Assembly (NCBI GenBank): GCA_036389795.1
Contig: DASVWD010000285.1
Coordinates: 1 to 64,000, forward strand
DNA from: Longimicrobium sp.
Lineage (GTDB): Bacteria; Gemmatimonadota; Gemmatimonadetes; Longimicrobiales; Longimicrobiaceae
Direction: 5' to 3'
DNA: 64,000 nucleotides
The position numbers were made by a program, and so were the translations under genes. Position 1 is the first letter of the stretch, and each line of letters begins with the position of its first letter. This document shows positions 3,473-32,773 of the stretch, piece after piece. The notes under the pieces are model-generated. The model had not been told where the DNA came from, made no database searches, and saw nothing but the letters and a program-made list of their open reading frames with translations.

Positions 3473-4687
3473 TTATTTCCAAAAAGCAGGGTAGAACACG
3501 CTTATGGGATTGCCAGCGTTTTCCGGATCTTCGAGCGCGGCGCGAGCCTGAGTGGCAATTTCCGCCTGATACGTCGCAATCTTGGGTACCAAGGTATAGA
3601 TGTCCGTGGTATCGATAACGACGGTCCGTACTTGGTTCGTATCGAAAGGAATTCTGTCGACTTTCCTAATGATTTGCACAATTGGTAGACGGCATGCGTG
3701 GCGCAGCGCCGTTTCGTAGAATACGTTGGGATTTAGCGTCGAGAGATCGGCTACCACGAGCCGACTACGTTTTATATGCTCGATGATTTGTGATGTAATC
3801 ATCCCTGGCGAACCGATCTGGTCAGCGCGAACTACTCTCAATCCGAGTTCCTCGATTGCTGGCTGCACGATCGAACCCATAAACAAATCTGCGTGTTTCC
3901 GTTGCTCGCTTCCCTCCTCGCCGATGGGCGTCACGTAGAAGCACACCTGTGCCCAATCCCCCTTTGCGGTGCCAATTTCATTCGTAGCACTCAACGGGGG
4001 AGTCGCGAACGCGCGAGGAGATTGGGGCGTGGATGCCAGTTCTTCCAAGACGTGTTCGACGGAAACTAGTGTTTCGGCGCCGCCAATCGTTTGCAGGAGG
4101 CCGAGATCTTTCGCATTAACCACGAACACATCGAGACACGCGCGAGGGTCGTCAATGTAGAAAGAGGACGACTCAAGGAAATCCTTCATGACCTCCGGCG
4201 CTGGCACGCGTTTGTTGACGTACTCTTCATAAATAGCCTTAAACGGTGGAATGTTCTGAATTGCTAGCCTAAACTTCGCCAAGGTGCGGTCACGATGGGT
4301 TTGCGTGTCATCGCACGCGATGCGGCCGTCCGGTGTCAGTTCGATCCATTCAGCCTTATACGAACCGATTGTTACGCCGTACTTGCTGGAGTTGGTAATC
4401 AAAACCCGCACAGCACTGCTGTTAGGGGAACGCCCAAGCTTCTGCATTAGGGTCAGTCGCCGGATCTTATCTCCACCCGCATAATTCACTATTCCAGCCC
4501 CCAGAACCAGCACCTGCTCCAGAGGCTCGCTGGGATAACCTTTTTCTCGTTTAGAGCCGATCTTGGCAGCTCCTACGCCCGACTTCGCGGGCTTTGCTGG
4601 TTGCTTCTTCGTCTTGGGTTTCTTTGTCGCCGCGCTCTTTGCCGGAGACGCTGCGGCTGCCTGGGCGATTTCCGTGTTATCAGCCAT
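3473..4687 (-). CDS. Putative defence effector with deoxyribosyltransferase-like domain
   Basis: A 404-residue protein in three parts: a Lys/Ala/Pro-rich disordered N-terminus (1-45), a middle region (~50-215) that looks like a winged-helix-type recognition unit, and a C-terminal domain (~248-345) of the nucleoside 2-deoxyribosyltransferase/TIR-like fold. The diagnostic C-terminal motif is ADLSTLNPNVFYETALRHA, with Glu325 at the expected catalytic position, plus an opening CFYVTPIG strand. Such domains are known as NAD- or nucleotide-hydrolysing effectors in bacterial conflict systems; the activity here is inferred. The gene is far more A/T-rich than its neighbours, which suggests recent transfer, and it sits between the integrase and relaxase genes of a mobile element. 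No sensor or cyclase partner lies beside it. Confidence 0.65.
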   Translation of the reverse strand: MADNTEIAQAAAASPAKSAATKKPKTKKQPAKPAKSGVGAAKIGSKREKGYPSEPLEQVLVLGAGIVNYAGGDKIRRLTLMQKLGRSPNSSAVRVLITNSSKYGVTIGSYKAEWIELTPDGRIACDDTQTHRDRTLAKFRLAIQNIPPFKAIYEEYVNKRVPAPEVMKDFLESSSFYIDDPRACLDVFVVNAKDLGLLQTIGGAETLVSVEHVLEELASTPQSPRAFATPPLSATNEIGTAKGDWAQVCFYVTPIGEEGSEQRKHADLFMGSIVQPAIEELGLRVVRADQIGSPGMITSQIIEHIKRSRLVVADLSTLNPNVFYETALRHACRLPIVQIIRKVDRIPFDTNQVRTVVIDTTDIYTLVPKIATYQAEIATQARAALEDPENAGNPISVFYPAFWK

Positions 4688-4875
4688 GAGCTTCAGAAGG
4701 AATCCGGTTGCGGAGTTTGCCGTGCCAAAGCTGAAGTCCTATCCAGATAATACTCCCGCCCCCTGAACGTCAAGCGACAGTAAAAATCGCACGCATTCAA
4801 TCCGATGCCTTGCGTGCCGCGGGCGCGTTGACCGTACCCCTTGGGCGGAGTCCCATGTTCGGACCGGTGCCGCAA

Positions 4876-6543
4876 TCAGAGCCCTAGCCCGCGCTCCCTC
4901 CGGATCGAACGCGGGGCGTCGAGCGCGCGCTGGAGTGCCCGCGCCGCCCGCTGCGCGGCCTCGGGGTGGTCGGCCAGGAGCCGGTCAAGCTCCCGCGCGG
5001 CCCACGTGGGGCGCGTCTCGGCCAGCACCGACCGGAGCACGGCAATCCCCGTCTCCTCCGCCGTACTGGAGTGCGGCAGGGCGCGCCGCATTTCTTTCGC
5101 CTTCACCTCCGCCTCGAGCGTCTTGCGGGCGTGCTCCTGCGCGGCGGAGAGAGCTTCCCGCGTCGGCTTCTCCCGCACGCGCCGCGCGGCCGTCTCCAGC
5201 AGGTCGGCGAGGTCGCGCGCACGGCGGCGGGCCTCGTCGGTGTTCCTCACCAAACCGAGCCCCCACAACGGGCGCACACCCCGCAGCTTCCCGAACGCTT
5301 CCGGCTTCTCGCGGAGGATGCGCACCGTATCCTCCAGCCCCTTTGCGCGGTAGTGCGCGGCCACCTTCGACTTGCTCGGCTCGGCGTACACCTCGCGTAG
5401 GGCGGGCTGGAGCACGTCGGTTGCTTCCGTCGCCCGGCGGGTCAACGCCTCCAGCCGCTCCACCTCGCGCGCGGCGGCGTCCGCCGCGCGCACGATTTCA
5501 GAGACGGCCTTTTCCGTCTTCCGGATCGCCTCCGCCTCGCGGAACCACTCGGCCGCGTGCTGAAGCTTCAGGCGCAACCCCGCCTCCTTCAGGCGGTCGG
5601 CCTCCTCGTCCACTAGCGCGGCGAAGGCTTCCTCCATCTGCCGCCGCACCGCCGCCGGCGGGACCGGCAGCGGGACCGGCTCAGGCTGCGGCGCCGGAAC
5701 GGGCTCGGGCTCCGGCTCAGGCTCGCGGACCGGCTCCGGCACGGCCGAAGCGGATGCGGGCGCGAGCGACGGCCCCGCAACGGTGCGTGACTGCGCGAAG
5801 TGGTGCGCAGAGTGCTTCCCAAACCGGGCCTCCAGCGTCTTGCGCGAGAAGCCGACCTCGGACGCCTTCACTTCGTGGCTGTCGTCGTGGATCACCAGCC
5901 CGCCGCCCTTCACGCGCACCGACAGCCCCACGGCCGCCAGCCCGTCGTGCACCTCGGCCCAGGAGCGCGCGCGCTCCAGCACCGGGCCAGCCCGCTCGGC
6001 CACGCGGTGCAGGAACGCCGGATCGCCGCGCAGCAGCACGCGCGCGGGCTGCTGCCCCGGAACGCGCCCGTGCCGGCCGGGCACGATGCGGAAACCAAGC
6101 TCTACCTCCCCTGCCCGCAACGCCTGCTCGATCTTCGGCCAGTCCCACGAGTTTTCCCACGCGCGGCGCGTCTCCGGGTGCACGCGGTTGACCACAAGGT
6201 GCATGTTCGGGTGCGCCGTGTCCTTGTGGGCCACGATCAAGGCCTCGTGACCGGAGAGCCCTAGCTTGCGCAGCACGGCGTCCGCCACGTAGCGCATGCT
6301 CTCGCGGTCTACCGGGTCGCCGGGATCGAAGCTGATGGACAGGTGATAGACCGGGCGCTGCGTCCGCAGCGACAGGGACGCCGTGGCGGCCATGAGCCGC
6401 GCCGCGGTCTGCGGGTCGGTGGTGGGAAGGTTGCGGGATTCGATCCACGCAACGCGGTCGCGCTCCTCGCCGGACGATCCCGCCTCCAGGTAGCGCGCCA
6501 GCCCCAGGAAGCCTTTCCCGAACGGGTACGTCTGCCCGATCAC
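4876..6543 (-). CDS. MobA/VirD2-type relaxase
   Basis: A 555-residue conjugative relaxase expected to nick the transfer origin and lead the strand into a recipient. Residues ~1-220 are the relaxase domain. A candidate nicking Tyr18 lies in LGLARYLE, and the metal-binding three-His motif is clear in HKDTAHPNMHLVVNRVHPE (His106, 111 and 115). A Pro/Glu linker (EPEPEPEPVPAPQPEP) follows, then a long charged coiled-coil tail rich in Ala, Arg and Glu. The start is the GTG at 6543, whose GTGA overlaps the stop of mobC; a longer frame upstream is only antisense-type GC noise. It has no type IV secretion genes nearby, so the element is mobilizable rather than self-transmissible. Confidence 0.85.
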   Translation of the reverse strand: MIGQTYPFGKGFLGLARYLEAGSSGEERDRVAWIESRNLPTTDPQTAARLMAATASLSLRTQRPVYHLSISFDPGDPVDRESMRYVADAVLRKLGLSGHEALIVAHKDTAHPNMHLVVNRVHPETRRAWENSWDWPKIEQALRAGEVELGFRIVPGRHGRVPGQQPARVLLRGDPAFLHRVAERAGPVLERARSWAEVHDGLAAVGLSVRVKGGGLVIHDDSHEVKASEVGFSRKTLEARFGKHSAHHFAQSRTVAGPSLAPASASAVPEPVREPEPEPEPVPAPQPEPVPLPVPPAAVRRQMEEAFAALVDEEADRLKEAGLRLKLQHAAEWFREAEAIRKTEKAVSEIVRAADAAAREVERLEALTRRATEATDVLQPALREVYAEPSKSKVAAHYRAKGLEDTVRILREKPEAFGKLRGVRPLWGLGLVRNTDEARRRARDLADLLETAARRVREKPTREALSAAQEHARKTLEAEVKAKEMRRALPHSSTAEETGIAVLRSVLAETRPTWAARELDRLLADHPEAAQRAARALQRALDAPRSIRRERGLGL

Positions 6544-31033: not shown

Positions 31034-31629
31034 CAGGAGTCATCCGCGTTCACCAGCGCGAAGAGCGGCAGGCCGAGCCCCGCCGCGGCGCCCGCGTAGC
31101 CGCCGAGACGAAAACCCGCCTGGAGCCGCACCCCCGACGCCGCCTCGACCTGCGTGGAGAGCGCCGCCCAGTCGCGCAGGCCCACGCTCCCCTGCAGCGC
31201 CGCGCCCAGCCGGGTGCGCACCTCCAGGTCCTCGTCGGCCTGGAAAAGGATGAGCGCGGGCGCCACGTCCACCGGCACGTCGTCCGTCACCCAGCGGCGG
31301 TAGCGCGCCCGCACGCCAGAGCGGAGCGCGTGGTCGTTCAGCGCCAGGAACACGCTCCCGCCCACCGCGTGGTCCGCGGACCGGTTGCGCATCCACCCCA
31401 CGTCCCACGTCGCCAGCCAGCGCCGCACGTTGTGCACCCCCGGCGGCGTGGAGACGAACCACTGCACCCCGAACTCGGTGATCCAGAAGCCGCGGCACGC
31501 CGGGAGCGGGCGCGGCTGGAAGCAGGCGCGGCCCCCGTCATCCTGCGCCCGCGCCGGGCTCACCGCCGCGAGCGCCAGCACGGCCAGCAGCAGGGCGCCG
31601 CGGGCCGCCTGCCACGGTGTCGCGCGCAT
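31033..31629 (-). CDS. Exported protein of unknown function
   Basis: A 198-residue protein with a signal peptide (ALLLAVLALAAVSPARA, cleaved before QDD). The mature part has two Cys (ACFQPRPLPACRGFW) that may pair, and repeated amphipathic strands (FGVQWFVSTPPGVHNVRRWL, VGWMRNRSADHAVGGSVF, VRLQAGFRLGGYAG). This suggests a small outer-membrane-type barrel, but no family is recognised. GGGAGGAGAT precedes ATG 31629. Its TGA overlaps the pgl ATG (TGATG), so translation is coupled. Confidence 0.6.
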   Translation of the reverse strand: MRATPWQAARGALLLAVLALAAVSPARAQDDGGRACFQPRPLPACRGFWITEFGVQWFVSTPPGVHNVRRWLATWDVGWMRNRSADHAVGGSVFLALNDHALRSGVRARYRRWVTDDVPVDVAPALILFQADEDLEVRTRLGAALQGSVGLRDWAALSTQVEAASGVRLQAGFRLGGYAGAAAGLGLPLFALVNADDS

Positions 31630-31733
31630 GATCTCCTCCCGTTCACGACCGGGGAAAGGCGCAGGCGAGCGGCGAGCTCCGCACCCCGTATGCCCCGGCG
31701 TCAGGCTTTGCACTCCGGTATGTATCAATCCTG

Positions 31734-31779
31734 TTGACACAATCGCGCGGCACGACTATGTATCATGTAGACTGATACA
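31734..31779 (+). promoter_or_regulatory. Sigma70-type promoter with GntR operator
   Basis: TTGACA (31734-31739), 17 bases, TATGTA (31757-31762). An inverted repeat TGTATCA (31759-31765), N7, TGATACA (31773-31779) covers the -10 element; a further TGTATCA half-site stands at 31721-31727. The gene that follows encodes a GntR-type regulator, so autorepression is likely. Confidence 0.7.
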
Positions 31780-31807
31780 AGTCACCCCTCCACGAGCGGA
31801 GGCTGCG

Positions 31808-32773
31808 ATGAGCTTCGACTTCGCCGACGGCGTCCGCCGCGCCCTGGCCCGGATGCGCGACCGGAGCCCCATCGAGTGGGGGGTCGTGTGGACCGAGCCA
31901 ACCTTCAGAGTCGCGGAGGCTGCGATGAACTACCACTTCACCGACGGCGTCCGCGGCGCTCTCGCCCGGGCGCGCGACGAGACGATCCGGCTGCGGCACG
32001 ACTGCGTCGCGCCCGGGCACATCCTGCTGGGCCTGCTGGGCGACAGGGACGTGTCCGCCCTCCTGGACCGGCTCGGGGTCGCGCCGCAGGACGTCCGCGC
32101 GGACATGGAGCGTCTGCCCGTGGTGCGGCGGCCGGTTCGCCTCGGTTCGGAGCTCCCTTACACGAGCGGCGCCAAGCGCGTGCTGGAGCGCGCCATGGCC
32201 GAGGCGCGCGAGCAGGGGGACTCCGAGGTCCGGACGGAGCACCTCCTGCTGGGCGTGCTCCACGACCACAAGAGCGAAGCCGTGCGGACGCTGCGGGGCT
32301 ACGGCGTCACCCTGGAGCAGGTGCGCGACGCGATGCGGGGCCGGGGCCCTGGCGCGGCGTTCGTCCCGCGCGTCGACGACGCGTCGGAGCGCTCCATCTA
32401 CGAGCAGCTCGTGGCGCAGGTGCAGGAGGCCGTCGCCACGGGCCGGCTGCGCCCCGGCGAGCGGCTCCCCTCCGTGCGCAGCCTGGCCGACCAGCTCGAC
32501 ATCGCCCCCGGGACCGTCGCGCGCGCCTGGACCGAGCTGGAGCGCCTGGGCGTGGTGGTCACCGAGGGCGCCCGCGGCACGCGCGTGGCCGAGCGCGCCG
32601 GCCCCCGCCCCGACGACGCGCGCGCGGAGAACCTGGTCGGCCTGCTGCGTCCGGTCGTGGTGGCCGCCTTCCACCTGGGCGCCACCGCCGCCGGGCTGCG
32701 CGAGGCCCTGGAGCGCGCCATGTCCGGCATCTTCAACGGCGACAGGCAGGGAGAGGAGCCCGCTGGCGGCTGA
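31808..32773 (+). CDS. Clp-N domain fused to GntR-type regulator
   Basis: A 321-residue regulator with an unusual fusion. Residues ~40-185 are a Clp-N (ClpA/ClpC N-terminal) repeat pair: ARDETIRLRHDCVAPGHILL, then VRTEHLLLGVLHDHKSEAVR. Residues ~195-270 are a GntR winged helix of the YtrA type: YEQLVAQVQEAVATGRLRPG, then LPSVRSLADQLDIAPGTVAR. The tail is a short helical dimerisation part. Clp-N usually binds adaptors or unfolded clients, so the domain may sense them (inference). GGAGG precedes ATG 31808. The start region, including GGAGGCTGCGATG, is duplicated at 31916-31928, giving a second in-frame start (MNYHFTDGV). A GntR operator overlaps the promoter. Confidence 0.8.
   Translation: MSFDFADGVRRALARMRDRSPIEWGVVWTEPTFRVAEAAMNYHFTDGVRGALARARDETIRLRHDCVAPGHILLGLLGDRDVSALLDRLGVAPQDVRADMERLPVVRRPVRLGSELPYTSGAKRVLERAMAEAREQGDSEVRTEHLLLGVLHDHKSEAVRTLRGYGVTLEQVRDAMRGRGPGAAFVPRVDDASERSIYEQLVAQVQEAVATGRLRPGERLPSVRSLADQLDIAPGTVARAWTELERLGVVVTEGARGTRVAERAGPRPDDARAENLVGLLRPVVVAAFHLGATAAGLREALERAMSGIFNGDRQGEEPAGG

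Follow-up and report, generated by a model that had tools for sequence, protein, structure and literature searches.

The window, the whole stretch of 64,000 nucleotides of Longimicrobium sp. DNA that was analysed, carries a gene in which two Clp_N repeats and a YtrA-type GntR domain stand in one open frame (31925–32773, or 31808–32773, + strand), and we put at about even the chance that its product is a self-contained sensor and probable sponge that controls its own gene. The features of the locus are:

31721–31741, + strand: distal operator TGTATCAATCCTGTTGACACA, 13 of 14 positions; its motif is conserved, once per genome and always at the fusion promoter
31734–31739, + strand: −35 hexamer TTGACA, inside the right half of the distal operator
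31757–31762, + strand: putative −10 TATGTA, spaced 17 nt from the −35 and overlapping the proximal operator
31759–31779, + strand: proximal operator TGTATCATGTAGACTGATACA, a perfect dyad over the putative −10, from a dyad search and comparison with relatives
31796–31861, + strand: copy 1 of a 66-nt duplicate, holding the ribosome site and first 18 codons
31808, + strand: start 1 (ATG), 28 nt downstream of the proximal operator (12–38 across the family)
31862–31912, + strand: spacer between the copies, 51 nt
31913–31978, + strand: copy 2 of the 66-nt duplicate, nearer in Clp-N helix 1 to the consensus of the family
31925, + strand: start 2 (ATG), 145 nt after the proximal operator
31925–32338, + strand: double Clp_N domain (ClpC-type NTD), from Pfam, PDB matches, AlphaFold2 and Foldseek
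32339–32395, + strand: linker, of lower confidence in the AlphaFold2 model
32396–32770, + strand: YtrA-type GntR winged helix and two C-terminal helices, from Pfam, PDB matches and AlphaFold2
32771–32773, + strand: stop codon of the fusion gene

The preliminary description had noticed Clp-N repeats ahead of a YtrA-type GntR domain, and this is confirmed by Pfam, NCBIfam and PDB matches. A Pfam search of the protein returned Clp_N in two repeats (E 5.6e-19) and GntR (PF00392; E 8e-14, 51.5 bits against a cut-off of 27) and no AAA+ module, which places the protein outside the Clp/Hsp100 unfoldases. The top NCBIfam match is Rv1152, a GntR-type regulator, and sequence matches in the PDB are ClpC NTDs for residues 4–136 and the YtrA-like Lmo2241 (4ham) for residues 150–273. 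The AlphaFold2 model (mean pLDDT 88) has a ClpC NTD fold that a loose linker joins to a winged helix, followed by two last helices (residues 229–250 and 255–271), after which the protein ends, and this fits the short two-helix C-terminus of ~50 residues that defines YtrA regulators (PMC4494728); Foldseek on the model retrieved ClpC1 and ClpC NTDs, including MecA complexes, for the Clp-N part and 4ham for the GntR part. The same genome also encodes several ordinary Clp_N proteins in long frames of 845–964 codons. The fusion protein has the fold of the ClpC NTD of the McsB–ClpC system and keeps roughly half of the residues invariant in ClpC, those of the groove included, but it lacks the AAA+ modules of ClpC, and it has diverged far further than the ClpC NTD of the phylum, which is nearly uniform. 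With the YtrA subfamily of GntR regulators it has in common the winged helix, the C-terminal helix pair, the structural match to 4ham and a long palindromic operator with GT and AC far from its centre. It differs from that subfamily in the double Clp-N in front, in having two sites, and in its predicted target, its own gene, whereas YtrA regulators usually control an ABC-transporter operon via a single site (PMC4494728). The protein may well be a self-contained regulator, its YtrA-type part presumably dimerising.

That this regulator has its own operator, as first proposed from one dyad, is well supported by comparative genomics, with two predicted sites rather than one, standing 38 bp apart. 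The proximal dyad, TGTATCA-N7-TGATACA, is perfect as originally described (0 expected in shuffles), and the distal dyad, TGTATCA-N7-TGACACA, had been missed in the preliminary description. The −10 over which the proximal dyad lies is a weak consensus and a generic promoter scan flagged no promoter at the fusion gene, so that the assignment of the −10 comes from comparison with relatives and not from the scan. The paired layout recurs before relatives down to ~40% protein identity, with a spacing of 29–40 bp. Dyad matches of at least 13/14 lie upstream of 17 of the 19 family genes (a chance of 0.0004 for each 160-nt shuffle), and pairs in which both sites reach 10/14 are likewise upstream of 17 of 19; the exceptions are genomes G010 and G236, with one site each, and in G092 both sites are weak. 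In 207 kb scanned, 15 pairs agreed with fixed criteria, and all 15 were at fusion promoters. Searched across whole genomes, TGTAYCA-N7-TGACACA has a single occurrence in each of 12 fusion genomes, invariably at the fusion, and none in six relatives that lack the fusion; controls likewise had none. Within the window's own genome, exact sites are absent beyond the fusion promoter, and hence absent at clpC, clpB and other chaperone genes, these genome-wide counts being of exact motifs, which degenerate operators elsewhere would escape. Because there is no other exact site in the genome, the predicted regulon is the fusion gene itself, and any benefit of such a regulon must come from the protein being made. 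The position of the two operators across the −35 and −10 suggests repression.

Besides the fusions, three stand-alone YtrA genes of the phylum carry the proximal palindrome, at their starts or shortly before them, which ties it to this type of DNA-binding domain. At these stand-alone YtrA-type genes it appears as TGTA-N13-TACA (L205:1633–1653, L206:1280–1300 and L207:1336–1356), suggesting that the wider YtrA subfamily here may be autoregulated.

A count across other genomes reveals a small family. A profile search at class level gave ~16 full-length fusions among 394 genomes, and a match at E 1e-60 is present in 18 of 395 phylum genomes, a count that includes the shortened copy of G236. One further fusion, in a Myxococcota MAG, came from a scan of 84,980 species that was seeded on GntR motifs and that fusions with diverged GntR parts could escape. 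The family is, as far as seen, almost confined to Gemmatimonadota. On the Myxococcota contig (L113, JASJCT010000163.1, 3916–4843) the fusion is accompanied by both dyads, reflecting either a transfer across phyla or a misbinned contig. In the GntR tree, the domains of the 19 fusions form one clade (support 100/99), in which the sole other rows are two same-genus fragments without Clp-N (L030 and L035), and a single fusion clade was not rejected by the AU test (p 0.20). The fusion tree departs from the host groups, with G010 separated from the other members of its genus, a pattern suggestive of gene transfer or loss. The preliminary description had allowed that the fusion might arise from a missing stop; this artefact is ruled out by the recurrence of the fused form in 18 genomes, with the junction sequence DDxSDRSIYEQIV conserved among fusions. 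The patchy spread over 18 of 395 genomes fits an accessory protective gene.

Several shorter or broken relatives were also seen. Clp-N-only genes lie within the pgl–zwf interval of two congeners (L039 in G011, ~4405–4960, − strand; L046 in G009, ~1950–2478, + strand), one of the two adjoins the fusion, and the interval looks like a Clp-N hot spot. We considered these stand-alone genes as unfused ancestors and rejected the idea: they are divergent, no such dyad is present at the G009 locus, and they look like separate paralogues. In a Longimicrobiaceae MAG, L043 (G008:C59, 3457–5424) holds several broken tandem Clp-N/GntR fragments, which are either decayed copies or assembly errors.

The closest known parallel is mycobacterial ClpC2, an autorepressing protein with two operators over its own −35 and −10; cyclomarin binds its ClpC-like domain and lifts the autorepression, so that ClpC2 comes off the operators, accumulates and sequesters the drug (PMC10030653; PDB 8AD9, 8B9O). 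ClpC2 and the fusion are alike in a ClpC-type NTD without an AAA+ motor, in two palindromic operators over the −35 and −10 of their own gene (for the fusion, a comparative prediction), and in self-repression (predicted for the fusion) with a sensor-plus-sponge logic. Their hosts belong to different phyla, and the operators are unrelated (CGTCAAC-n5-GTTGACG in ClpC2, TGTAYCA-N7-TGRTACA in the fusion). In ClpC2 a four-helix N-terminal domain makes the dimer and the Clp-N surface contacts DNA, whereas the fusion has a separate C-terminal GntR winged helix; no homology to the ClpC2 dimerisation domain was found in the fusion, where the fused part is GntR. Because the DNA-binding part differs, the fusion is not a ClpC2 orthologue and only a functional analogue.

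Comparison shows a fusion family with paired predicted operators, a predicted regulon limited to the gene itself and retained groove residues, and we infer repression through binding of these sites by the GntR domain, its relief by a ligand, and a sponge role for the protein. In the mechanism we propose, the fusion protein, presumably a dimer via its YtrA-type part, would bind the two palindromes over its own −35 and −10 and thereby keep its level low. A ligand filling the ClpC-like N-domain groove would cause DNA binding to be lost and the protein to be made in quantity, and the surplus Clp-N domain would then vie with ClpC itself for the ligand. Our best guess for the ligand is a ClpC-targeting antibacterial peptide; the alternatives would be a phosphoarginine-marked or unfolded protein, or an adaptor. 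The narrower proposition, that Gemmatimonadota reached independently a ClpC2-like solution in which a ClpC-NTD decoy joined to a GntR repressor acts as an inducible antidote, encoded by one gene, against peptides that target ClpC, seems to us a serious possibility, with chances somewhat short of even.

For the groove, residue numbers follow what we take to be the ClpC1 sequence of M. tuberculosis, used for numbering only. Lys85 and an aromatic at position 80 are kept in all 18 fusions, while the positions at which ClpC of the phylum is invariant are retained at ~50% on average. Every cyclic peptide bound to ClpC1 of M. tuberculosis makes contact with K85 (PMC12583610). Phe2, a main cyclomarin contact of ClpC1, is absent from the fusions, and the host ClpC is without Phe2 too. 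Lys85 and the aromatic may be retained for folding. The idea, already in the preliminary description, that the fusion senses a Clp-N ligand is plausible given the retained groove residues; among ligands we prefer one of the groove, with phosphoarginine as the main rival.

That rival has the Clp-N domain reading phosphoarginine-tagged or misfolded proteins from the McsB–ClpC system, with derepression signalling protein-damage stress, and we judge it rather unlikely. Of 21 genomes tested, 20 encode the arginine kinase McsB, and in the window's genome, as in many more, its gene and that of ClpC share a contig and a strand and stand no more than a few hundred bases apart; of the two phosphoarginine glutamates, the counterpart of E32 survives in 16 of 18 fusions and E106 in 11 of 18. 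However, these glutamates vary more than the groove residues, and the window's protein has lost one of the two and keeps only E106. A damage signal also sits poorly with exact operator sites confined to the gene's own promoter and absent from clpC, clpB and other chaperone genes, and with a fusion found in ~5% of genomes when the kinase is in nearly all those tested. A general heat-shock regulator was ruled out by the lack of exact sites elsewhere in the genome. In its own right, the gene order, with McsB just upstream of clpC (G000:C122:5345–6833 and in many relatives), is one from which the phosphoarginine–ClpC system appears to extend to Gemmatimonadota.

Two other roles receive still less weight. 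As an anti-adaptor, the protein would titrate ClpC adaptors with surplus Clp-N and damp ClpC proteolysis, the DNA-binding part only holding its dose constant; its fold does match the adaptor-binding ClpC NTD, including MecA complexes, and negative autoregulation steadies levels, but a search for ClpS gave hits in the window's family alone and in none of the other 12 fusion genomes covered, and the presence of the fusion is patchy, which makes this role improbable. The gene stands between pgl and zwf in the window, with the same setting in two congeners, and a conventional YtrA-like regulator of these neighbours, or of a divergent gene (31043–31629, − strand), might be expected from such a neighbourhood. 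We think this highly improbable: the window has no further operators, hence none at pgl or zwf, the neighbours differ beyond the genus, and the divergent gene was not found at the congeners' loci; for pgl and zwf, we rejected regulation on the lack of sites and on neighbours that are not conserved outside the genus. No shared neighbours across families are obvious, in-depth annotation covering the window, so that no other target of the fusion regulator is evident. The divergent gene has a signal-peptide-like start and no Pfam match.

The start region of the gene is duplicated, as had been reported for its first ~60 bp. The copies are 66 nt long, 86% identical and 117 nt apart, a match far beyond chance in a BLAST against the own genome (E 1e-15); both share an identical GGAGGCTGCGATG, with GGAGG-CTGCG-ATG in each, and the starts at 31808 and 31925 are in the same frame. 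The genome search gave no match for a source of the 51-nt spacer. The further claim of two protein lengths is not established, and the duplicate occurs in this genome only. A regulator with long and short isoforms of differing activity, an idea compatible with the other explanations, is possible though doubtful. It would draw on the in-frame ATGs with identical ribosome sites and on start 1 standing at the family distance from the operator. Against it, the 39-residue N-terminal extension is predicted to be disordered (pLDDT 43–64), the consensus residues of Clp-N helix 1 (Thr6, Ala16, Glu19) are kept in copy 2 and have drifted in copy 1, and the second ribosome site lies inside a stable predicted hairpin, stronger than that at start 1 (−29.6 vs −23.2 kcal/mol). 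The duplication is absent from all relatives and so is not part of the family's mechanism; we see it as a species-specific elaboration. On the simplest reading, it would have shifted the true domain start downstream and left a working start at the old place, and either start or both may be used.

DNA binding by YtrA domains and autoregulated Clp-N sponges are each already known separately, and we found no Clp_N–GntR protein in the open-access literature searched. If the autorepressed sensor and sponge is the right reading, an inducible ClpC decoy logic arose at least two times, with unrelated DNA-binding parts and operators, and this repeated origin would point to compounds directed at ClpC as a strong force of natural selection. 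The family would then also offer a ready-made one-gene biosensor, whose promoter, coupled to a reporter, could reveal new ClpC-NTD ligands in a screen. The narrower ClpC2-like antidote reading, if true, would imply that peptides aimed at ClpC are at work in soils and sediments well outside the Actinobacteria.
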